Assembly (NCBI RefSeq): GCF_035083965.1
Contig: NC_089738.1
Coordinates: forward strand, 10,690,734 to 10,754,733
DNA: 64,000 nucleotides
Direction of reading: 5' to 3'
Origin: Branchiostoma lanceolatum
Lineage: Eukaryota; Chordata; Leptocardii; Amphioxiformes; Branchiostomatidae
The notes under the pieces are model-generated. The model was not told the DNA's origin and ran no database searches. It saw nothing but the letters and a program-made list of their open reading frames with translations. The stretch's first letter is position 1. Each line of letters opens with the position of its first letter. Below, piece by piece: positions 9,731-41,784 of the stretch. The translations under genes were made by a program, and so were the position numbers.

Positions 9731-10904
9731 AAGTGGTGTTTTAATTGAGGTCTAGATCTGTTACTAAATATACTGGATTATATACTATAGAGTCGCATCG
9801 ATATCGGTAGCAGCTACCAAGCTACGCTTGTCACAGTTGAAATCGATAGTAGGGGGTGGATAAGTAGCGTGAAAATTAAACCTCGAAGCTTTAATTACTG
9901 TGTGTTGTTAGCCACAAGGACAGGGAAGTATGTGTAACGTTACATGTACGTCACCTGAAACGCAGGCTGGGAAAATGTGCAATCTGTGCCTCATGTCATA
10001 TACTGTGCTGGGAATGTTTGCTGGGAAAAAAACACGGGCCTGTTCTCATGATAGTAGTATGGTAACGTATATGAAACAGAGCAACAGTCAACCAGTGCAA
10101 TATGTTTGTATGTAGATTTCCTGTTCTTCTTTTTTGTGGTTTTGGGCATTTTTAGGCAACAATTACATTTTGGGCTCCTGTGCCCTGGCGATCGAGTTGA
10201 TGCGTGTTTGCTGTCTTTTGCTTTTAATGTCGACATTTGGACGGAATAAGGCGGTGCTGTGAGACTTTTTTTGGAGATGTTACATTTGTCGAGGAGTTTC
10301 AATGTTCCTTGGACCCATCTCATGCACAAGCCATCCAGTAGACGCCCGCAACATGCAACTTTGTGTCTGCCCAGGTGCCAATACGCACCGTCAGGCCTGT
10401 TGTCGATTTAGACATTATGTCGCTTGTGACTCGCGTGTTTATAACATGATAAATGTCCAGCTGCATTAAGCCGATCGTGACCACGGGTGTGGTCCGGAAG
10501 GGCTTGCTGAACGTTGCGGTCATGTCTTGGTAGCGGCTACCTAATCCGGAGTCGAGAACGTTGTAAGGATTCACCTAAAGAGATACAATTTATCAACATT
10601 GAGCATGAAATTCAACCTTAAGATAAACTCAAAAGTGCAGCATTTAAATCAATTTTAAGGAAAGAAATTGTTGCAGAGAAAATCACGAACGGAAAAGGTA
10701 CTTTTTTTATTCAACTCCAAAATGCAGAGCAGAGTTAGAATGAAGGAATTCCACATGCAATTTTGTAACAGGATATGTACGCATGTTAACTCTACTCGAT
10801 TCATTTGAATGTTACATTTCAAAACTCGCTTGGATATGAGTAATATAACGTACAGCGTTCGATGTAGTTTCTCTGTTCCAAAGCCTGGATCCTTTGATCT
10901 TTAG

Positions 10905-11560
10905 CCGCCTTTTCTGCCTGAAGCTGATCTATGTCGTCCTGCTGTTGTTGGATCCTTTTGTCCTTAGCTGTCATCCCTGTTTTGAGCTGTTGTATCTCAG
11001 CCTGGGTCCGTTGGCCCTCGGCTGTTGTCTCCTTCTGACGCTGTAGTATATCGTCCTGCTGTTGTTGGATCCTTTTGTCCTTAGCTGTCATCTCTGTTTT
11101 CAGCTGTTGTATCTCAGCCTGTGTCCGTTGGCCCTCGGCTGTTGTCTCCTTCTGACGCTGTAGTATATCGTCCTGCTGTTGTTGGATATTTTTGTCCTTA
11201 GCTGTCATCTCTGTTTTGAGCTGTTGTATCTCAGCCTGGGTCCGTTTGCCCTCGGCTGTTGTCTCCTTCTGACGCTGTAGTACATCGTGCTGCTGTTGTT
11301 GGATATTTTTGTCCTTAGCTGCCATCACTGTTTGGAGCTGATGTATCTCAGTCAGAATCCTTTGGCTGTCGACTGTTGTCTCCTTCTGAAGTTGCTTCAT
11401 CTCGTCCTGTAGTTGTTGGATCCTTTTGTCTCTAGCTGCCATTCCTGTTTCGAGCTGTTTTTTCTCAGTCTGGGTCCTTTGACTGTGAGTTGTTGTCTCC
11501 CTCTGAAGTCGGTGTATCTCCTCCCGCAGTTGTTGGATACTTTGGTCTTGAGCCGCCATC
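10905..11560. repeat. Coding tandem repeat, 117 bp (39 codons)
   Basis: Within the unit 3 coiled-coil exon a 117-bp unit is repeated about five to six times. Copies between about 10960 and 11320 are almost identical, while the outer copies have diverged. The period is a multiple of three, so the frame is kept. Each copy encodes a module with KETTAEGQRTQAEIQQLK at its centre. Unit 1 carries about one degenerate copy, unit 2 about two and unit 4 about three, so the stalk length differs between paralogs. Confidence 0.85.
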
Positions 11561-11612
11561 TCTGTCTGCAACTGTTGAAAGATCTTGTCCATGACGGCGT
11601 TTAAGGGGGAGG

Positions 11613-13382
11613 CTGGATCTGGACAGAATACTAGTTAGTAGTACATGATACCTGTCTGGACCCATTACTGCAGTTGATACCTAATATCAGTAATAAAGGC
11701 AGCTGGTAGGGTACAAACGCCGGTAAGGTTTTTCAAAATCACTGTTGCGGAGATATGCATAGGTGCCTGCACATGATCAGTACGTCTACTTATGGACTAG
11801 ACCTTCATGTAGCTAACTACAAAGTCGGAGTACGTGTTGAAGTTTGGTAAGACCAAGAAGATACAGACTGAAACATTTGCATCAGTTTGACGCCTCCCCG
11901 AATTCAGTGCGGAGGTTGACGAGCGAACTTGTCGAGAACACGGCCTTTGGAACTCTTAGATTATTCATCGTAAAATACGACATGTGATAAGATGCCGCCA
12001 CATATATATGGAAGAATATCTATTAGACTCCCTCTAAAACGCAGCTACGCCATGTCTTTGCCTTTAAAGTTGGAGAATCGTAGCTAAAATGACGCTGCAA
12101 CGTTCATCCAGTCGCCCCGCCCTCTTTACCAATCACCTGATGAAGGCAGCCTAGGCATGCTCAACACGATAAAGTTAGCGGGTAGAGCACCGAGGATTCC
12201 AGAAATTTTAACCCTGTCGACTAAAAAAAAAAATAAATACTGTTCCCATTTGATCTTCAATACTGCCGCCAAAAACAACGTTGAAAAAAACAGAAAGGAA
12301 GCCGAAAGCGAAAATGTGTAATCACAGGCGGACGTATATGTGCCGCCGTTTCGTTTGTTGGTTGCAGGTTGATCTTTCTGTATTTTGAGATTTTTTTATG
12401 GATATATATATATATTGTTTTGAGCGTGTTTGTGTGCGTGTTTGCGTGCATGTTTGTGTTTGTGTCCAGATGCTTGTAGTCAGCATAACTCAAGAACGTC
12501 TGGATGGAGTGTAAAGATATGTGATAGGTGGGTAGATGTTGGGAGAACAAAGGTCAAGTTCGTTTTTGAGCCCCCTGGTATGTGACTCTGGAACTGCATT
12601 GGCGTTTTTGTCAAAATCTTCCAAGGAGAATACCTGAACAAAGGAACGACAGATTTCCGTGTTATTTAATATGCAGGTAGCTTAGACAGAGATGTACATA
12701 ATGAAGTGCAAATTATGCAAATTGAGACTTAATTTGCATATGTAATCTATATTTCCATTCTAGGCATGTTGTGGCAGCTGGCACCTGTTAGTTTCGAAAC
12801 TGGGACAAGTATTCCCCAGGGGCCCACAGCTAGGGATATACAACTGTTCTAATCTAGTCTCTACCAGACTAACTACACTGGCTACATAAAAAGGGGAAAT
12901 TATCCACCATGTGGTTCGGAGGGGAAATATTGCATCATATTGGCCTTCCCGCAGACTGCCGTGTCCTGGTCTCTATAATCATTCCGCCTCTTGCCGAATT
13001 CGACGATCCAGTATATGTGCCCTCGTATAAAGGTCTGGCACGGGCTAGTCCTACTCCCAACGGCCATTGCGCCGAGCTATATCTCCGTGACAAGAACACG
13101 GAAGTAACAACTGATGCGTGTCGCGCGGACAACACTGTATGTGTCGTTCCAACAAAAACACAGGAGAACTGTGTGCTAAGTGCATGATTGTCGATCCTCT
13201 TTCAGTGGACCGAGTACTTTTTTAGTGTACAAAGCAACAACGATTTCAACAAAAACTAATTAAGTGGCCTATTGCCCATATAGCTAGAGTACACAATGTA
13301 ATAACGTTACAGTATTCACGAGTCTGACGACCTACATTCTGTAAATATATCCTGAGATCTATATGATCATGACGTTCCTTAC
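11613..13382. other. Unit 3 intron without recognised coding exons
   Basis: This is the interval between the signal-peptide exon and the coiled-coil exon of unit 3. It contains a short dispersed repeat copy (12540-12760, 'gagccccctgg' through 'caaattatgcaaatt'). Open frames on both strands at about 12909-13187 overlap each other, have no family resemblance and lack splice support. I see no gene here beyond the host intron. Confidence 0.5.
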
Positions 13383-15801: not shown

Positions 15802-18113
15802 TCAAGCACAGGCCATCCAGTAGACACTGGCACGGTACACCCTTGACGCATCCCAGGTGCCAATACGCACCGTCAGGCCTGTTGTTGACTTAGACCTTAC
15901 TTGGCTTGTGACTCGCGTGTTTACACCATTATAAGTGTCCAGATACGTGAAGCCGATCGTGACCACGGGAGTTGTCCGGAAGGGCTCGCTGAACGTTGCG
16001 GTCATGTCTCGGTTACGGGCACCTTTTCCTTGGCTGAGAGCGCCGTACGGTGTAGACAGCACGCCGGATTCACCTAAAGAGATGCAATTTGTCTACTTTG
16101 AGCATCAACTGTACGGGAAGGAAATGCAGCAGAAAAAAAGCACGAACAGAACATATATTTTGATTCATCTCTCAAATGCATAATTAGAAAAAGAGGAATT
16201 TTGTAACAGGATGCTAGACTCGTTTGATTGTAAAATTTCACAACTGTCTTGGATATAAGTAAATATAACCTACAGCGTTCGATGTAGTTTCTCTGTTCCA
16301 ACGCATTGATCCTTCGTTGTTTAGATGCCTCTTCTCTCTGAAGCTGACGTATGTCGTCCTGCTGTTGTTCGTCCCTCGCTGCCATCTCCGTTTTCAGCTG
16401 CTGTATCTCAGTCTGGGTCCGTTGGTTCTCGGCTGTGGTCTCCTTTTGAAGCTGGTTCATCTCGTCCCGTAGTTGTTGAATCATTTGGTCTTTGGACGTC
16501 ATCTCTGTCTTCAACTGTACAAAGATCTGGTCGATGATGGCGTTTAGAGAAGAGGCTGGAACGAAACCGAGTGGCATACTGTTATCAGTACAGGGTAGGC
16601 TTGGAGCTACCTGATACCTTACATCACAGAGGTGCTGGGACAAGGTCACCGTGGGTTTTTTTAAGCTGGATTATCTCGTCCCTCAGTTGTTGGATACTTT
16701 GATCTTTCGCCGCCATCTCTGTTTGCAACTGTTGAAACAGCGACATCTGGCGGAATATGGCGTTTAGGGCTGGACCAAAACGGAAAGCAACGTTTCGGAA
16801 ACAACCGTTAGAAAACCTATCCATGCACGAAATATTTCAAATTGTTGTAAATTTCTTTTTTTTTTGTCTTGTGTCATTGATGATGCAAATTTGATAAGGC
16901 TGTAACTAGCATAATCTATTTCAAACGACTCCCTTCTCCACCAAAATCATATAAATTGCATGTGTGAAAGTCCTCTCCGTTCGCGGAATTAGATGTTTAC
17001 CTCTCATTATAAATTATGCAAATACTTCAGTTCGGGAAAAGCTGCGGGGGGGGGGGGGGTGCTAAACATACACCACTTGCTTCCTGCCCCAAGAGCTCTC
17101 TACCACTCAAAAAGCACGACCATAGCTTGTCCAGATCAGGAGGTATCGAAACCGGAAGATTCCGCTGCAGTACCGTAACAGGCCACAAGGAGGCCCAAAA
17201 TCTAATGATTTTGATGTCTCATCAAAAAATCTAATAATTTTGATGTCTCATCGAGGTCCACCCACATTCCAAATATCAAGACAATCCACCCAGGTCTTCT
17301 CGAGTTATGCTGTTCATCCATCTACATACATATAAACATACATACATACAAACGCTGCCAAAAGCTTAACCCTCTTAGCGAAGGTAAAAAATACATACCA
17401 GCCGTCAATAAACCGCTGGGCTCATCTTGGTTGTTGCCATTCTCGCTACCCGCCTCTGCAGTGCAGACGCCACCGGGTTCTGCACAGTCTGTACCTTCAC
17501 GAGAGAACACGAAAACAAGCACTAGTTATCTCTTTTGAAACATCTTCTCAGTCACAGAAGAAATCTTAGGAGAATTTTTGTTATAAAATGGACAAGTAGG
17601 AACGTGGGATTTGACTCAAATTCTGAGTTTGAATAGTTTTGAAGTGTGAACGGAAAAAACTGAGTGAACTGGTCAAATTTCTATATGCCAAGATGTAGGT
17701 AATGATCTTTTAAACAGCTTCTTGTCTGTGAAGATAACGACGGACTACTCTATCAAGGCACAATAGCTTTCAATCAATAGTGCCTGACCTGTACGTTGTG
17801 AAGAGGAATAGTCTTCGGCATCTGGTTGGGCTCCATCTCGCAGGGTGCTGCCAAAGGCTGAAGAAATGATGGAACATAATGGTGGAACATAATGGTGGAA
17901 CATAATGGTGGAACATAATGGTGGAACACAACACCTTGAAGTGGCCTTTTATGTCTACGTGATGACCATTGAGTAACAACAGACTTATTTACGACCCTTA
18001 TCGTAATTGTAATTCGATCGTGACCTGGCCTATGAGATCTGTATACGTGTCTTACCTTGCGGAAAAGCTCCACACAGAACAATCAAGACCAAGATGTAAG
18101 CTTGTGTCTCCAT
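15802..18113 (-). CDS. Secreted coiled-coil / H-type lectin gene, unit 4 (intact)
   Basis: Six exons: 18056-18113, 17789-17857, 17399-17488, 16650-16769, 16274-16555 and 15802-16073. They total 891 nt and 296 aa, with all introns phase 1. The first exon is a signal peptide (METQAYILVLIVLCGAF) that is a close paralog of the unit 3 leader. Exons 2 and 3 encode hydrophilic linkers; exon 3 has two cysteines (DCAEPGGVC), possibly a disulphide. Exons 4 and 5 both encode coiled coil starting with the LNAI motif, so one is a duplicate of the other. The last exon is a complete H-type lectin domain (residues about 208-296): [46 protein letters not shown]. Expected to be a secreted oligomeric glycan-binding protein; oligomerisation through the coiled coil is inferred. 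It is the only full-length secreted member in the window. Confidence 0.85.
17085..17200. repeat. Dispersed repeat copy (opposite orientation)
   Basis: The block 'gagctctctaccactc' through 'gaaaccggaagattccgctgcag' and 'ggaggcccaaaatctaat' is the inverse of the repeat described at 2935-3180. It lies in an intron of lectin unit 4, next to a poly-G run at about 17045-17059. Confidence 0.55.
17871..17930. repeat. 13-bp minisatellite in a lectin-gene intron
   Basis: The unit GGAACATAATGGT is repeated about 4.5 times without a mismatch. It lies only about 15 bases upstream of the acceptor of unit 4 exon 2 on the transcribed strand, where it reads as repeated CCACCATTATGTT and overlaps the branch-point region. 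Confidence 0.9.
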
Positions 18114-21108
<2,995 letters not shown>

Positions 21109-24100
21109 ATGTCTTCACGCAGACGACTTTCCTCAAGAGCGGGAAAACGCGACCGCAGAAATGTTATCGTGGTTGGGGCAGGCCTCAGTGGTGAGTGGTT
21201 ATCGTTAACTTTGAACCTGGCCGCTATCAAAGAAATGTGTGGGAGGGCGTGAAGTGAGTAGCCACCAACCCCACTGGAAAGTGTACACTGGTTAATCTCT
21301 GTTTACATATCGGCCATAAAAGAGGGCCTGTAACTGGGTACTAAGTGCCTAGTCATATACTACTCATGTACTGTAATTTTTTTTAACAAAATATGTTGGT
21401 CGTTCAATTAAGATTGTCTAAATGGGGGGGGGGGGGGGGTAATAGTTATCAAGGTTCAATTAGCAACTCTCAAATGACATTTGCAGTGACTGTCTAAGCA
21501 AATTATTAACGATTTAGACAATTTTTACATCTTTCAGTTGCAATAGTAGATTATCTTAGACCAGAAAATGTTGCATAATCGCCCATGGCTACACGTTAAG
21601 TGCGTTAACGGTAGACCAGCTGTCGTTCATACAGGCTATTGTAGTTTCATAGCGTAGGTACTTAACAATAAATACGTCAAATTTAACGTGCCGTAATATA
21701 AGGGCCTTCTGTAACCTAGTATTCGAAAGCATATGCTTCTATTTATTTTGCCGTATTGAAGTGCTGTACTAGCTGTATAGCCTAATAGACTGTAAAATGC
21801 TGAGGACTGGAGCGCACTGTCAAAGTTTTTTCTTAGGTTTGTTCCACTATTTATTGCCTTTTTGTTCAATCCATCTGTCTTGTGTGAATCATTTTGGTAA
21901 GGACATGACATTTCTTTTACAAGTTTTGGTGATAAACTCATGAATTCTAATTCTCCATTATTTAATGCTGACTATGCACGTTTGTTCAAGCTCAGGGTTC
22001 CAAATATCCCCGTCAGGGTCAGGACAAGGTTTGTTTTCAAAACGACATGATGACGTTACTCTGACCTTAGCAAATGAAAGGTTCAGATCGATAAACCGGA
22101 CCTTACAAAGGTGAAAAGTTCTACCAAAAGAGAAATGTTGGTAATCTCCAAGTCGATATTGGATGGGCACTGGACCTAAGAAAAACGTTACTACGACCGT
22201 ATCTCCCAATAGACTAAATGTTTGGTACTAAGTTTCGGTGTAATCCTGTAAATGCAGAAATGTTCGCGGGGGTTTAATTTCACGGTAGGGAGAGAATGTG
22301 GTGCTCGCGGTGGTTTCGAGTTCGCGTTTGAAACAGTCGTAGCAATACAGCCACACAACGGAGCGGCTTTTCGCGGTGGTTTAAGTTCACGGTAAAGAGT
22401 TCACCGCGAAAAGCGCGAACATAAAACTACCGCGAATATTTCTACATTTACAGTATGCATGTATAGACAAGGTCTCATTGTTGTATACCTGGTGACAACA
22501 AAGGTCAACAGCATAATTATACAGCCAAGGCTGCCATTTCTCCTTCATATAACAACTCAAGGTCTGTCCCAAAGGCTATCCCCACCGGCAAGGGCAGATA
22601 TTAGAATGTCTACTATCTGCCGAAGGGTAGATATTACTCATAGAAACCATTGCGATCCGTAGCTTCTTCTTATCAATAGCATCATATATATTTCGAACTG
22701 ATAGAAGAAATATTTTTATCATACATTCAGAGAGTGTGCACATATTGAGATACCGTTATCCCCAAGCTTGTTTTGCTCAACTCTTTGCGAATGATTCATT
22801 TATTTCTTCATTCATTTATTTTATGAGATTCACCACAATAGTGGAAGGATTGACATAACAGGTGACTACCACCTTTTCAAGATAACAAGACTGTAAAATT
22901 TGATCCACTCACACCGGGATAGACTCCTACCATGCCTACTATTTTAAGTGTGGTGGGTTCTTTGACGTGCTTGGGGTGTGTTTCAACGGGACACCTATCC
23001 GAGGGGATGTCCTTGACCAAAGATAGGTACTCATTTTAACCTGAGTCCAGTGTGAGGAAAGAAATACTAGTCGTAGTAGATGTTAAGTGCCTTTCCCAAG
23101 GACACAGCACCGGGGTAAATGCTAAGGATTCGAACGCAGAACATTGACCACATGATTAACCTAGACCTGAGAATCAATAGAATTAACCATCCTAACCACA
23201 GGACGACCTTGTCACCTGTCACCTGATTGGAACGTAAGCGTCTCTCTTAACGTGCACTATTCTCTGTTAACACCCTATCCTTGATCCATAAACTAGTTTA
23301 GGTGCTACTGGAAGGACTACCACAACGCTTCAAAAAGCCGCAGGCCATACATGTGCATCTGCTTGGAGATCAGGGACTAGGGCATGTAGAATTTTATTCT
23401 TATGATCTTCAAAAGGGAAACTTTTCACTGTTAAAACGTTGTACAGGTTTGTCTGCCGCCAAGAAGCTTCACGAAGAAGGTCTGGACGTGGTGATTTTGG
23501 AGGCACGTGACAGGGTGGGAGGGCGCACACTGACACTTCGGGTGAGTTCCCTCGTACCGAGATGTCAATCTTATCTATAAGGCTAAACTCGAGTCGGATA
23601 TTGCGGAGATATCATCGGCAACGAACAACTGCCCTTAGCAAAATATCAGTACTGAAATACGGCCGTCGGTAACTTAACACTTACTCACAATTGCATTTCA
23701 GTAACATTTCAGCGAGTCAGCTTTAATTACTGTCACCCTTTTGGTGAAACTGACAAGCACTTGCGGGTTTCTATGTATTTTGTAAATTTCAAAAGGGATT
23801 CGAAACGTATGAAGAGAAAGCAACGTGCACCAAAAAGACTATAAGATAGATAAGTACAATTTCTCTAAGTACTAATTACTGTGAGTATTCAACTGTTGCT
23901 GTTTCAATTTTTCTCAAGCATCGTTTGAAAATCAGGGTGAGTGTTGATCATCGATATATCTGGTCTGGAAAGACCGTTTAAAGATGGATCGAGCAAGTTG
24001 GCGACACCTCAGGAGCGGAGCCGTTAGCATAGTACTACATCCGTCTTTGCAAATATTCTAGGAAATCCACGAACGTATTCCCTAGGGAATTTTTTTTTTT

Positions 24101-27100
24101 TTTGCTACACCTTGTTCTTCCTGTTCTTCCCCAGAACGAGAATGTGGGGTACGTAGACGTGGGCGGTGCGTACGTGGGTCCTACCCAGGACCGGGTGTTC
24201 CGTCTGGCCCGGCAGCTGGGGCTGCAGACATACCGCGTCAACGAGACAGAGAGGGTCGTCTTCTACACAAAGGTTAGCTATTTGATGTGTTGTATGTGGT
24301 ACACTGTAAACTCTTAATTAAACTGCTTAACTGTGCTTTCCCAGTTGACTAGAGCTCTGGGAATGAGATTGAAGTGTCGTAAGCGCTTGCGTGGCTGAGT
24401 GGCTATGCTAGCGCACACGAGATCGAGAGGTCACTGATTTGATTCCTAGCGTTCCTCGCTAGACTTTTGTCTTTGAGAAAGGCTTTCCTCACTCCACCCA
24501 GGTTTCAAAATTGGCACCTGACTTCGGCTATTGAGGTAAAAGGCGGTAGAAGGAGAGGGGTGGACTCCCCCTTCCAACCCCTACGGCCTCAAACACGTTA
24601 TGGGACTTCCTGTGCTTCCTTTAAGCGCTTGTAAGTGAAAGGAAGTGAAAGTGAAAGAAGAGAGCGGCCGCAAACGTGACTGATGATCAAGTCGTAAAGC
24701 CCTTCAGTCAGATGTCGAAAATAACACTCAAGGGTGATGATACTATCACATCCGTGGATTTAAATTAAACACACACGGCTAGATAACGGCGATGTAAAAG
24801 TGATGTTTTTTTTTTACTAGTCATCATTGCTGATTACATCGTACTCTTTTACGGTGTTTCTCTGTAGGGTGAAAGTCGACCTTACAACACCGTACTTCCG
24901 CCCATGCGCAACCCACTGGTTCATTTGGACTGCAACAACTTCTTCCGAAAAGTGGACGAGTATGGAGATATGGTAGGGATGATTTGTCTTGTATTTCGAA
25001 ACACCTCGAAACTTCATCATTCAATGGATACCACTCAGGTCCCCTTTGATCTGAGCCTTATTTTGCTTCTATTCGACACAACAGACTTTTAAAAAAAGAA
25101 AACGTTCACTGTATAAAAACGGTATGGGACATTGTGTAACTTGATGAGTGTGAACATGTTGTGGCCTCATTCGCAGACTTCTTGGAGCGGCGGCGTTTAT
25201 TTTTTGGGGGAGCGCTGATACGCGATTTTTTTTTTATACGGGCCGGCTCAGGGAGTTATGTCGCCGAGGGAGGATCGCCTCTCCAACAACGAGAGAGAAA
25301 ACCTTGGTCTGTGTAAAATTCGCGTAACAGCACTCCCTAAGAAATAAACGCCGCCCCTCCAAGAAGTCTGCGAAGGAGGCTAACATTTTTAAGATAGCCA
25401 TGGGTTTTCAAGTTAAAGCTTACTCTTTATCTTTCTCTTACCAGCGGCACCGGCATATTTTTGTAAATAGTCCTACAGGAATGCTCGAGCCTTTATCAGT
25501 CTCGTGATGTGAACTTTGTGCGTGTATTTTAGAGATACTTGTTGTGTTTGCTAAACTTCATGGTCACCAGAGGGTGTGGCTGATATCTTAAACCTTATCC
25601 TTATGTCTTGTACTTTGGCAACGCCCCCATGTTTTTAGCGTTATGGACTTGAGTCCCTGAATGAATCGATTAATGAATTAATCAATCAATAATTGGATCA
25701 ATGAATGAATGAATCAATGAATTGCGCACAATATCGTAAAGACAACACAGAGCTGTTCCTGCAATACTGTTCAGATCCCACAGGAGGCGCCCTGGGACTG
25801 TCCGCACGCCGAGGAATGGGACCGCATGACCATGAAGGACTTCTTCGACCAGGTGATCTGGACGGAGGAGACGCGGACCTGGGCGGAGATGTTCGTGCGG
25901 CTGAACGTGTGCGCAGAGCCGCACGAGGTCTCCATGCTGTGGTACCTGTGGTACGTCAGGCAGTGCGGCGGTAAGTCGCTAGAAAGCGTTAATGTTTCAT
26001 CGTTTTAAAGTTCAAAACGCCGGTCGCAGTAAAGCATTAGGTGGGGATACAAACATAGCAGCACCAATTCAATAAAGAACATAGAACATCTCCATATTCA
26101 TAACTCGTCGGAGTTTAGTAAAGCTTTTGACCCCCAAGCTTTTCGATCCCCTAGCGTTTTACATTGACATGTGCATAAACTCTCATAAACATGATCTCTT
26201 TTTCCTAACCCCCTATACAGGGAGCATGCGCATCACAGCAGTTAGCAACGGCGGTCAGGAGCGGAAGTTCGTGGGAGGCTCTCAGCAGCTGAGCGAAAAG
26301 ATAGCAGAAATTCTGGGAGGTACGTCACACCCTCGATATCAATCAATCAATCAATCAATCAATCAACCAACCAACCAAGCAACCAATCAATGATATGCTC
26401 ATTCAACCAATCAATGTGTTAGGTAGTTGACTCGTAGATTTGTTGAAGATCACACGTTTAGCGACCCTCACAATGCCGAGTGACGGAGTGTTATTATGAC
26501 GATTATTTTTTTCCAGACCGAATCGATTTCTCCAGTCCGGTCCTTCGGATCGAACAGCGGCGAGACAAGGTCGTGCTGTACACACAGGACGAGCGGAAAC
26601 ACGAGGTGCGCATGCGTCAACAACTTTTTTAGTACCTTTAACTTTGCTCCTTCGGTCTGTGTGTGGTTAAAATAGAAAATCATTTTACCCTTTTTCTCCC
26701 ATACTTTAGGCTGAGTACGTGATCCTTGCGATCCCCCCACCTCTACTCCAGAAGATCGTCTTCTCTCCTGATCTTCCATCCTCCAAGTTGCAACTAATCA
26801 AGCGCATGCCCATGGGCTCCGTCGTCAAAACCTTTATGTACTACGAGAGCGCCTTCTGGCGAGAAAATGGTAAGGTGCAGACTTATCATTTGATTCACAG
26901 ATGTAAAACAAGCGTCAAAATTGTTTGTAAAAGTTGAACAACCATTGCTTGAGGAGATAGCCACGCAACTAGACAGTTAATCTACACACTGCAGTACTTA
27001 CCGGTAATGCATAAGAGTAGAGACTTCAAGTTAACAAGGTAACTTCCAGGTTTGACCATCCAACATGGTGGACAAATTACTGACGTCATAGAACTAGTCA

Positions 27101-29987
27101 CGTGAGTACAGACAGCCAATGGAAAGACTTGGCACGTCTTCCACCCCTGCAGATTATTGTGGGTTCGCTGATATTGACGACCCGACCTACCCTGTGGCCA
27201 ACACCGTGGACGATACCAAACCGGACGGCGCCTATCCTTCCATCATGGGGTAAGAAAATAACATTTCACATCAAACGTGGTATTATCATGAAAAACAGTC
27301 ATCAAATCACTTTCAACAAATTACTCTGGAATTTGGCAACATTCTGATATATGGCAACTTTATATTTTCGTAAATTCGTCACATTTTCTTCATTGTAATT
27401 CTACTGTTTTCAGATTCATCTTGGCAGACAAGTCCAGGGAGTTTCCACACTTAACACAAGAAGAAAGGTAACTACAGTTTTAATTTTGATCTTCTTATCA
27501 AAAACGTGTTTATTAGGAACTTTTGATAACTTATCTGTCTCCCTTTTCCCTCCAGGAAGGAAATTATTTGCCAGAGCTACGCCAAAGTCTTCAAGTCAGA
27601 CAAAGCTCTTCATGTATGTATGACCCCCGTTTTTATGCTGATACGCCTTTAAAACCTATGCAAACAAATTATCATGCGTATTGTTTGATAATTAATCTTT
27701 ATTGTCACGAAAAAAATGTACGGCAAACTTTAACCTGTTTTTTCTATATGCTTAAATAGACTCAGCACATTTCATAGCTCAAGCCTTCTTGACTCATTGC
27801 TTACGTCACGTATATAAAATCACGTGATCAAAAGCAATCGGGTCATTTATTCTGAAGAAGACCGGAATTGCAATGAGTGTATTTACGTCTGTTCTAACAA
27901 GTGTACGTGTGCTAAAATCATAATGTATCGTTATCTTTTCCCCCCACATCAGCCTGTTCACTACGTGGAGATGAACTGGAACAAGGAGGAGTGGACGGGC
28001 GGGGGGTACACGTCATTCGTCCCGCCGGGCGTCCTCACCACATGCGGCAGGTGAAACATCCGCCCTATATCTTATCAGTCAGGATTTTGATTTAACTCAG
28101 ATAAACTATATCTTGATAGAAACTGTGTATGGCCAAGTAGGTCTATATAAAAACCTCCTTGGTATGGCAAAACATTTGTTAACAACCCAAGGTATATTCA
28201 TGATCCGGAATCTAAACCTTTGACGTAAATAGTTAGCAAAATACTACAAAACATGAACGTTGATGAAGGTTAGACATCCAGGTAAACAATACTGATATAC
28301 AATTTAAACTCTACTACTGGATAAATTATGGAGATTATTTCCGGACGTTTCGGGTGACACTCTTCTTCAGCGTTACTAGAATAAACGAATGAATGGATGT
28401 CACCCGAAAAGTCCGGAAATAATCTCCGAAATTTATCCAGTAGTAGAGTTTAAATTGCATATTACAGAACACGTAAGTAACTGTCATAATGGCTGCACCA
28501 TACTTATTTTCCAGGGAGTTGAGGACGCCGTTTGGGAGGATATTCTTCGCCGGTACGGAGACTGCAGTAGGCTGGTCAGGCTACATGGAGGGGGCGATAC
28601 AAGCGGGGGAGAGAGCTGCTGCTGAAGTAAGTGGGACTTGCTTAACAGTATCTATGTATGTGATAATACTTTACGTTTGGGACCGCATTGTTAGCAGCGA
28701 CGCCTAGCTGCAATGTAAAGTTACCATTGCCAGTTATCAATACACTGAAGAAGATGACAGATAATTTCCTTGGTTGTGAATAAAGACATTTGCTATTCAG
28801 TAATAAGTAGGGCTCTTTAAAGAAAGGTACGATGTTGCACTGGTGTAAGGTTGCACTGTATCAGTTGAGGTCTAGATATAGTTTTCCGTATTTGACGGCT
28901 GATCTATAACGCTATAGTGCAACTGAGAGCACGTCGTTCTGCTGTGCCATTCTCTGGTCTATAGAGATCTCTCTTTCGTGTTCAGCTGACCGTCTAGTGC
29001 CATATACGTATCAGCATGGTTATTGACTTACAGTAAGCAATAAACACTGAATGTTCAACAAATTAACTTATAGATGGGCTGTAAAGCTCTGTTAGTACAT
29101 GTACAACATGATCAATGGCTCACATGTCCAACAGCGAAGGTCCCCTACATGTATGTTGCAGATCCTTTGTCAGATGGGGAGGCTTGAGCCGTCTGAAGTC
29201 TGGACCGCAGAACCAGAGAATGAGGTAAAAAGAGATTACATGAACACTTAAAGGCTTGAAAACGTGGTAAACTTTGTAAAAAAACATGAACACTTAAGTT
29301 AGGATGTCTATTTAGGACGCTCACGTTAAACAATTATGTCTTAGTCTTAGGAAAGGGAAGTCGTTTAGAATTCTGATGATCGAGATTTTGATGTACTGCA
29401 TTCCACATTATCATCAAAGGAAATAGAACGTCTTGATTGTGTACAATCTCTTACAAGATGAGTGAAAAAATTCCCAACCTATCTTCAAGATGACACGGCT
29501 ATAAAAAGAATTTCTTAAGAGTTTAGAAGTTTGCCTACAACCGGTTTTCTTTCCTCATCAATCGCAGGATTGCATAGCTCTCCCGTTTGAGAGCTCGCTG
29601 ATGGAGAGGTACCTCCCGTCTGTTCCGGGCCTGCTGAAGATCATTGTCGGCGGTTCTCTGTTGAGCGTCACGGCGCTTGGCCTGCTCTGGAAGTTCCGCA
29701 ACCGTCCGGACAGCGCCACAGTCGCTCTCCACCACTCTTACCAGTTACTCCGCTCAGCAGCGCCACCCTTCAAAGCGATTGCTTCCGGAATTGCAGGCTC
29801 GGCCAGAAAGGGTTTCCCTAGTATTGCCGTGTTTACCTACGTGTACCACTGTGACTATAGGCAGCGTGTGCGAATGGAAAGAAGAGCAAGGATCGTAGAC
29901 AATTGGCAAGCGGAGAAGAACAGGAATTCGGCCAAAAAGGCACCGCGAAGCGTTAGGGTATGGAAAAGGGCTGGTTCAAGAAGATAA
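21109..29987 (+). CDS. Monoamine oxidase-like flavoprotein lacking the FAD-linking cysteine
   Basis: Fifteen exons: 21109-21190, 23447-23541, 24135-24272, 24868-24972, 25775-25970, 26221-26319, 26517-26605, 26710-26869, 27153-27249, 27414-27467, 27556-27613, 27953-28050, 28515-28626, 29162-29224 and 29568-29987. They total 1866 nt and 621 aa, with GT-AG introns and phases that match throughout. Family marks: the dinucleotide motif VVGAGLSG (G23, G25, G28) with E46 at the end of the second strand, [32 protein letters not shown]-like [12 protein letters not shown]308 (counterpart of the flavin N5-contacting Lys), the aromatic cage Y410 and Y447 in WSGYMEGA, and a C-terminal YLPSVPGLL followed by a hydrophobic helix (about 503-523), as in outer-mitochondrial-membrane MAO. 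Where human MAO-A/B have the cysteine bound to FAD (SGGCYT), this gene reads TGGGYT, Gly409 (codon 28004-28006). The known proteins are about 520-527 aa; here a basic tail of about 90 aa follows the membrane helix. It is expected to oxidise amines, but substrate and flavin linkage are untested. Confidence 0.92.
22246..22453. mobile_element. MITE with CTGTAAATG inverted ends (copy 1)
   Basis: The ends are CTGTAAATGCAGAAATG on the left and its inverse (ATTTCTACATTTACAG) on the right, followed by TA. The interior is itself palindromic: 'gttcgcggtggttt' blocks pair with 'aagttcacggtaaag' and 'gttcaccgcgaa' blocks. Two relatives sit at 40515-40685 and 45688-45899. A TA target duplication and short inverted ends suggest mobilisation by a Tc1/mariner- or Harbinger-like transposase. 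It has no coding capacity. Confidence 0.75.
22905..23200. repeat. Dispersed repeat related to copies at 42940-43190 and 57128-57340
   Basis: The three copies share, in order, 'gttcttt(g/a)acgtgct', 'catttaa'- or 'acctatcc'-type blocks, 'aggtactcatttt(a/c)', 'taagtgcctttcccaagg' and a 'gattcgaac'-like block. The last block resembles an inverted tRNA B box, suggesting a tRNA-derived SINE in reverse orientation. The copies are strongly diverged. Confidence 0.55.
24383..24658 (+). mobile_element. tRNA-derived SINE in a MAO intron
   Basis: The 5' part resembles a tRNA with an A box (GCGTGGCTGAGTGGC) and, about 40 bases later, a degenerate B box (GATTTGATTCC). A non-tRNA body follows ('aggctttcctcactccaccc', 'cacctgacttcgg', 'cttccaacccctac') and then a purine-rich GAAAGTGAAAG tail. 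No stable tRNA cloverleaf with a proper acceptor stem can be drawn, so it is a SINE head and not a tRNA gene. Confidence 0.65.
25164..25380. mobile_element. MITE with about 60-bp inverted ends
   Basis: The left end begins GCCTCATTCGCAGACTTC and continues TTGGAG, GGCGGCGTTTATTT. The right end is the inverse, with AAATAAACGCCGCC, CTCCAAGAAGTCTGCG and AGGAGGC. The interior is about 100 bases with no coding capacity. It lies in MAO intron 4. Confidence 0.8.
25660..25735. repeat. AATC/AATG tetranucleotide tract
   Basis: Imperfect runs of aatcaatcaat and gaatgaatgaat lie just before MAO exon 5. A longer related tract (AATC, then AACC) is at 26337-26395, immediately after exon 6. Further short tracts occur at 34722-34740, 35045-35060 and 35105-35215 in GFM1 introns. 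Confidence 0.8.
26337..26412. repeat. (AATC)n / (AACC)n microsatellite
   Basis: About six AATC units are followed by AACC units and a further short AATC run. It starts about 18 bases after the donor of MAO exon 6 (26319/26320). It has no coding role. Confidence 0.85.
28301..28456. mobile_element. Foldback element with 58-bp near-perfect arms in a MAO intron
   Basis: The arms 28301-28359 and 28399-28456 are inverted copies: AATTTAAACTCTACTACTGG pairs with CCAGTAGTAGAGTTTAAATT at the outer ends, and GGGTGACA with TGTCACCC at the inner ends. The loop is about 39 bases. The preceding 'gttgatgaaggttagacatccaggta' also precedes the repeat at 43890, so the two may belong to one larger family. It lies between MAO exons 12 and 13. 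Confidence 0.8.

Positions 29988-31710: not shown

Positions 31711-41784
<10,074 letters not shown>

Follow-up and report, generated by a model that had tools for sequence, protein, structure and literature searches.

A lancelet monoamine oxidase gene with glycine at the position of the FAD-linking cysteine

Introduction

In the monoamine oxidases (MAO), Cys406 of MAO-A and Cys397 of MAO-B bind FAD through an 8-alpha-thioether bond, and why mammalian MAOs attach the cofactor in this way remains a matter of debate. The lancelet locus described here raises a question on this point, as an earlier reading of the DNA (hereafter the sequence-only reading) had claimed that it encodes a MAO-like protein with glycine in place of that cysteine. 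Is the glycine genuine, and what kind of enzyme would carry it?

The gene and its surroundings

The window, by which we mean the whole 64-kb stretch of DNA that was analysed, contains a MAO-type gene at 21109-29987 (+). Its 15 coding exons give a protein of 621 amino acids in one open frame that runs to the stop codon, with no internal stop and no frameshift across the spliced frame. All 14 introns have GT/AG borders (GT after exons 1-14, AG before exons 2-15) and consistent phases. The FAD site lies in exon 12 of 15, an arrangement that may match human MAOA and MAOB, with their 15 exons and the FAD site in exon 12. The exons and the two codons at the FAD site are the following:

21109..21190, + strand, exon 1: N-terminus; the dinucleotide motif VVGAGLSG begins here
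23447..23541, + strand, exon 2: columns 45-54 invariant in the alignment
24135..24272, + strand, exon 3
24868..24972, + strand, exon 4
25775..25970, + strand, exon 5
26221..26319, + strand, exon 6: carries Thr211, the gate residue matching MAO-B Ile199 and MAO-A Phe208
26517..26605, + strand, exon 7
26710..26869, + strand, exon 8: carries Lys308, MAO-B Lys296 by alignment
27153..27249, + strand, exon 9: carries Asp328 and Asn338, MAO-B Ile316 and Tyr326 by alignment
27414..27467, + strand, exon 10
27556..27613, + strand, exon 11: carries Lys385
27953..28050, + strand, exon 12: exon of the covalent-FAD site
28004..28006, + strand, GGG codon: Gly409, replacing MAO-A Cys406 and MAO-B Cys397
28007..28009, + strand, TAC codon: Tyr410, retained Tyr of the aromatic cage
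28515..28626, + strand, exon 13: FAGTETA...WSGYMEGA; carries Tyr447
29162..29224, + strand, exon 14
29568..29987, + strand, exon 15: hydrophobic tail segment 504-522, then a C-terminal extension of 99 residues

A tblastn search of the window with the whole protein (E up to 10) returned only these 15 exons and four chance-level matches (E of at least 1.6), with no second MAO copy and no other exon 12 within the 64 kb. An alternative exon 12 carrying the cysteine, an objection that the sequence-only reading had itself raised, was rejected for the window on this result.

Elsewhere in the window, two H-type lectin domains (Pfam H_lectin) were identified on the minus strand, at 10320-10574 and 15802-16092. 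Each has an upstream open reading frame (ORF) on the same strand (10819-11634 and 16074-16670, respectively) that looks coiled-coil by eye and gave only sub-threshold Pfam matches. An ORF at 36594-36938 (-) resembles part of mitochondrial elongation factor G by eye; it gave no Pfam match.

The residue at the FAD-cysteine site

Codon 409 of the spliced frame is GGG, and the protein reads TGGGY where human MAO-A and MAO-B read SGGCY. In an ungapped phmmer alignment Gly409 falls on the Cys of the MAO-B motif SGGCYT, and a MAFFT alignment puts it opposite Cys406 in MAO-A and Cys397 in MAO-B; the MAO-A reference sequence agrees with PDB chain 2bxr over 527 residues. Both alignments, together with the spliced frame, confirm that glycine stands in place of the covalent FAD cysteine.

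The codon is located inside a run of six G (28001-28006), after GGC, and the sequence-only reading had remarked that at least one base change separates it from a cysteine codon. This is true but loose: GGG is two substitutions away from TGC and likewise from TGT, so a single miscall cannot yield it, and a single-base miscall was rejected as its origin. A length error in the six-G run would break the frame, and the intact frame argues against such an error; that the frame around GGG is intact had been stated before and is borne out by the reading frame and by the splice phases on both sides.

The 12 residues to either side of Gly409 include neither Cys nor His; the nearest are Cys422 and His394. 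Because there is no thiol at position 409 and neither residue within this distance, the usual thioether is impossible there.

Family membership and conserved residues

The Pfam domain Amino_oxidase (PF01593) was found at residues 26-463 with 276.8 bits against a cut-off of 19.8 (E 5.5e-82), and this domain above the curated cut-off makes the protein a member of the flavin-containing amine oxidase superfamily. Identity amounts to 54% with human MAO-A and 56% with MAO-B, compared to 35-38% with seven plasmid-borne prokaryotic relatives. A quick 90-row tree (the lancelet protein, MAO-A, MAO-B and 87 prokaryotic rows) unites the lancelet protein and the two MAOs in a three-row clade with 100% SH-aLRT support; the protein belongs to the animal MAO clade, apart from the prokaryotic relatives. 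A "MAO-like" animal clade has also been described (PMC10244343), and our assignment to MAO rather than MAO-like follows from the identity values and from this small tree, in which the "MAO-like" clade has no row.

Sixty columns are deeply conserved, being common to MAO-A and MAO-B and to at least 90% of the 87 prokaryotic rows, and the lancelet protein keeps 59 of them. The sole miss is Lys385, at a site that is Gly in MAO-A, MAO-B and all 87 selected prokaryotic relatives; a lysine at this universal Gly site may hint at relaxed constraint. At a looser threshold of 80%, 84 out of 90 columns are kept; of the 347 columns in which MAO-A and MAO-B carry the same residue, only 230 are.

Lys308, Trp400, Tyr410 and Tyr447, which we take to be the catalytic positions, are all retained in the alignment. 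As the sequence-only reading had proposed, Lys308 aligns to MAO-B Lys296, and the aromatic cage is preserved, with Tyr410 and Tyr447 aligned to MAO-B Tyr398 and Tyr435 and 37 residues apart. Roles of the Tyr pair and of the Lys are also given in PMC11833248. What the sequence-only reading took for a membrane tail was found again as a hydrophobic segment (residues 504-522, mean hydropathy 2.02), a candidate for the C-terminal helix with which animal MAOs sit in the mitochondrial outer membrane. The protein thus shares with human MAO-A and MAO-B its clade, the Lys/Trp/Tyr-Tyr set and a hydrophobic C-terminal tail, but differs from them in having Gly409 instead of Cys406/397 and in its 99 residues beyond the hydrophobic segment. 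These residues, encoded in exon 15 (29568-29987), appear Arg/Lys-rich near their end by eye; human MAO-A stops soon after its own segment.

The aromatic cage and the Lys had been described as kept, which holds, but the sequence-only reading overlooked a polar change at the substrate gate. The gate pair Phe208/Ile335 of MAO-A and Ile199/Tyr326 of MAO-B, singled out as such in PMC4945635 and PMC11833248, is replaced by Thr211/Asn338, and Asp328 is found at the position of MAO-A Ile325 and MAO-B Ile316. Polar gate residues would favour a more polar or cationic amine, and the change therefore suggests a substrate more polar or cationic than serotonin or benzylamine.

The same site in other amine oxidases

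A scan of genome contigs with a single protein as query gave six pattern matches, none of them related, while a later scan with an alignment as query gave at least 560 relatives. The 87 prokaryotic relatives considered here comprise the best 80 of these (at least 560) genome matches and seven plasmid-borne sequences, the latter chosen among the first 11 entries in a list of 108 plasmid records with a match. Viral contigs contributed three distant loci (26% identity), in two of which the site is gapped and in the third of which it is beyond reach; they were excluded from tally and tree. In phages no match was found with MAO-B as query.

All of the 87 selected relatives retain the Lys. At the site itself 48 have Cys, 33 Gly and six Ala, so that 39 carry a residue other than Cys in this selection (best 80 of at least 560, plus seven from plasmids), whose rows are not independent, many of the Gly-Pro rows being close Streptomyces relatives. 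In 25 of the 33 Gly rows the next residue is Pro, and these are a looser precedent because Pro, not Tyr, follows the Gly. Gly followed by Tyr was found in eight of the 87, six of which also retain the second cage Tyr, and GGY is read as well in a Rhodococcus plasmid gene outside the tally (L091). Bacterial GGY oxidases such as L049 (Acinetobacter dispersus) and L061 (Brumimicrobium oceani) resemble the lancelet protein in the Gly-Tyr pair, the second cage Tyr and the Lys; they differ in being only 35-37% identical to it.

On the 90-row tree the site has undergone at least 19 changes of state. With 99% support, B. oceani (L061, GGY) has B. glaciale (L074, GCY) as its sister row, and in Acinetobacter L049 and L005 show the same GGY/GCY-type difference with 88% support. 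Exchange among Cys, Gly and Ala at the FAD-cysteine site is recurrent among these relatives.

Gly also occupies the position of MAO-B Cys397 in the cyclohexylamine oxidase of Brevibacterium oxydans (4i58), which reads WAKGGPVTYMPPG (WAKGGP) and was aligned to MAO via the common query L091. In phmmer it scores 268 bits against the lancelet protein, compared to 667 bits for MAO-B. Further matches were obtained with Rhodococcus putrescine oxidase (about 217 bits) and Aspergillus MAO-N (about 80 bits), presumably two amine oxidases of this superfamily with non-covalent FAD, whose similarity to the lancelet protein is lower. According to PMC3608611, the active site of cyclohexylamine oxidase contains FAD and has an aromatic cage, and the enzyme is thus comparable to the lancelet protein as an FAD-dependent amine oxidase with Gly at the site; it differs in being bacterial, in having Pro rather than Tyr after the Gly and in lacking a C-terminal extension (PMC3608611). 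The available main text of that paper never uses the word "covalent", and the FAD linkage is unstated there.

PMC7576179 reports a Ser at the matching position of maize polyamine oxidase, strongly conserved across polyamine oxidases, and a plant clade in which Cys stands there but forms no covalent bond. Taken together, the prokaryotic survey, 4i58 and this plant study indicate that, across the wider family, a residue other than Cys is nothing unusual at the FAD-cysteine site and can go with a working site, and that Cys at the site does not guarantee a covalent bond. The strong surprise that the sequence-only reading implied for the glycine is accordingly weakened: with 39 of the 87 selected relatives and a solved cyclohexylamine oxidase lacking the Cys, Gly409 is less surprising.

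Discussion

We consider it probable that this gene encodes a functional, tail-anchored member of the animal MAO clade without covalent flavinylation, with FAD most likely held non-covalently in a MAO active site that is standard in other respects. A MAO-fold enzyme with non-covalent FAD, or alternatively one that may show altered redox behaviour, had already been proposed; the exclusion of the usual Cys-FAD thioether and the retained catalytic residues agree with the first of these proposals, whereas we infer the non-covalent state itself, as we do FAD binding, activity, location and substrate of the lancelet protein. FAD would occupy its normal pocket, where the conserved dinucleotide motif and the remaining FAD contacts would keep it in place; Gly409 would leave a small gap at the place of the 8-alpha-thioether. 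The Tyr410/Tyr447 cage would orient the substrate, amines would be oxidised at the flavin, and O2 would react near Lys308, like in other MAOs.

Alternatively, the enzyme may be dead or degenerating: the gene would be transcribed, but loss of the Cys would destabilise FAD binding in a paralogue under relaxed constraint. Such a course could account for Lys385 at a Gly site common to all 89 compared enzymes (MAO-A, MAO-B and 87 prokaryotic ones) and for the non-conservative gate changes, and human MAOs mutated from Cys to Ser reportedly lose their activity. We nevertheless regard it as unlikely, as the 15 exons show neither stop nor frameshift, GT/AG is found at 14 of 14 introns, and the catalytic residues are retained together with 59 of the 60 deeply conserved columns. 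An error of sequencing or of assembly in this G-rich stretch, or else a rare allele, would mean that the usual protein of the species carries the Cys. The position of the codon in a six-G run after GGC, and its being read in one sequence only, speak for this explanation; the two substitutions that separate it from either Cys codon, and the frame and splice phase intact on both sides, leave it rather improbable.

That Gly409 is the older animal state, with Cys having arisen or been regained later on the vertebrate line, would fit the unrooted tree, where L041, sister to the animal clade with 94% SH-aLRT support, has Ala. By path length L026 comes closest, and this row has Cys; as the tree is unrooted and these two rows differ, it is compatible with a change in either direction. 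Cys is, moreover, the commonest state among the selected relatives (48 of 87), and other invertebrate MAOs probably carry Cys at the site. Carp MAO is reported to have the motif Ser-Gly-Gly-Cys-Tyr as well (PMC6152983), and we give the idea of an ancestral glycine very little credence. As for the FAD being covalently attached via another residue, the 385-450 region holds only His391, His394 and Cys422, none of which adjoins the site in sequence, and Cys422 aligns with a Tyr of both MAO-A and MAO-B. Other flavoenzyme families do attach FAD via His or other residues, yet attachment by a neighbouring Cys or His was rejected here for want of one close in sequence, and attachment via another residue is hardly credible.

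Returning to an enzyme that works without the covalent link, we tentatively propose, at somewhat less than even chances, that covalent flavinylation was lost secondarily and that the polar entrance (Thr211/Asp328/Asn338) would admit a different substrate. Among the literature matches listed (titles and abstract openings, with few subscription journals), there was no report of a lancelet MAO sequence and no Cys-less enzyme of the animal MAO clade; Gly at the FAD-cysteine site within this clade, together with a polar substrate gate, looks new.

Conclusions

The lancelet protein is real and intact, and is most likely a variant of animal MAO with non-covalent FAD, within the known kinds of amine oxidase. 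In bacteria, Brumimicrobium oceani and B. glaciale provide a matched natural pair differing at the FAD-cysteine site. If the proposed reading of the lancelet protein is true, it would offer a test case from nature for the purpose that the Cys-FAD bond serves in mitochondrial monoamine oxidases. With a natural relative that lacks the Cys, is about 55% identical and has a membrane-type tail, one could measure how the bond affects stability, redox potential and membrane assembly, using a naturally adapted protein as the comparison instead of a point mutant.
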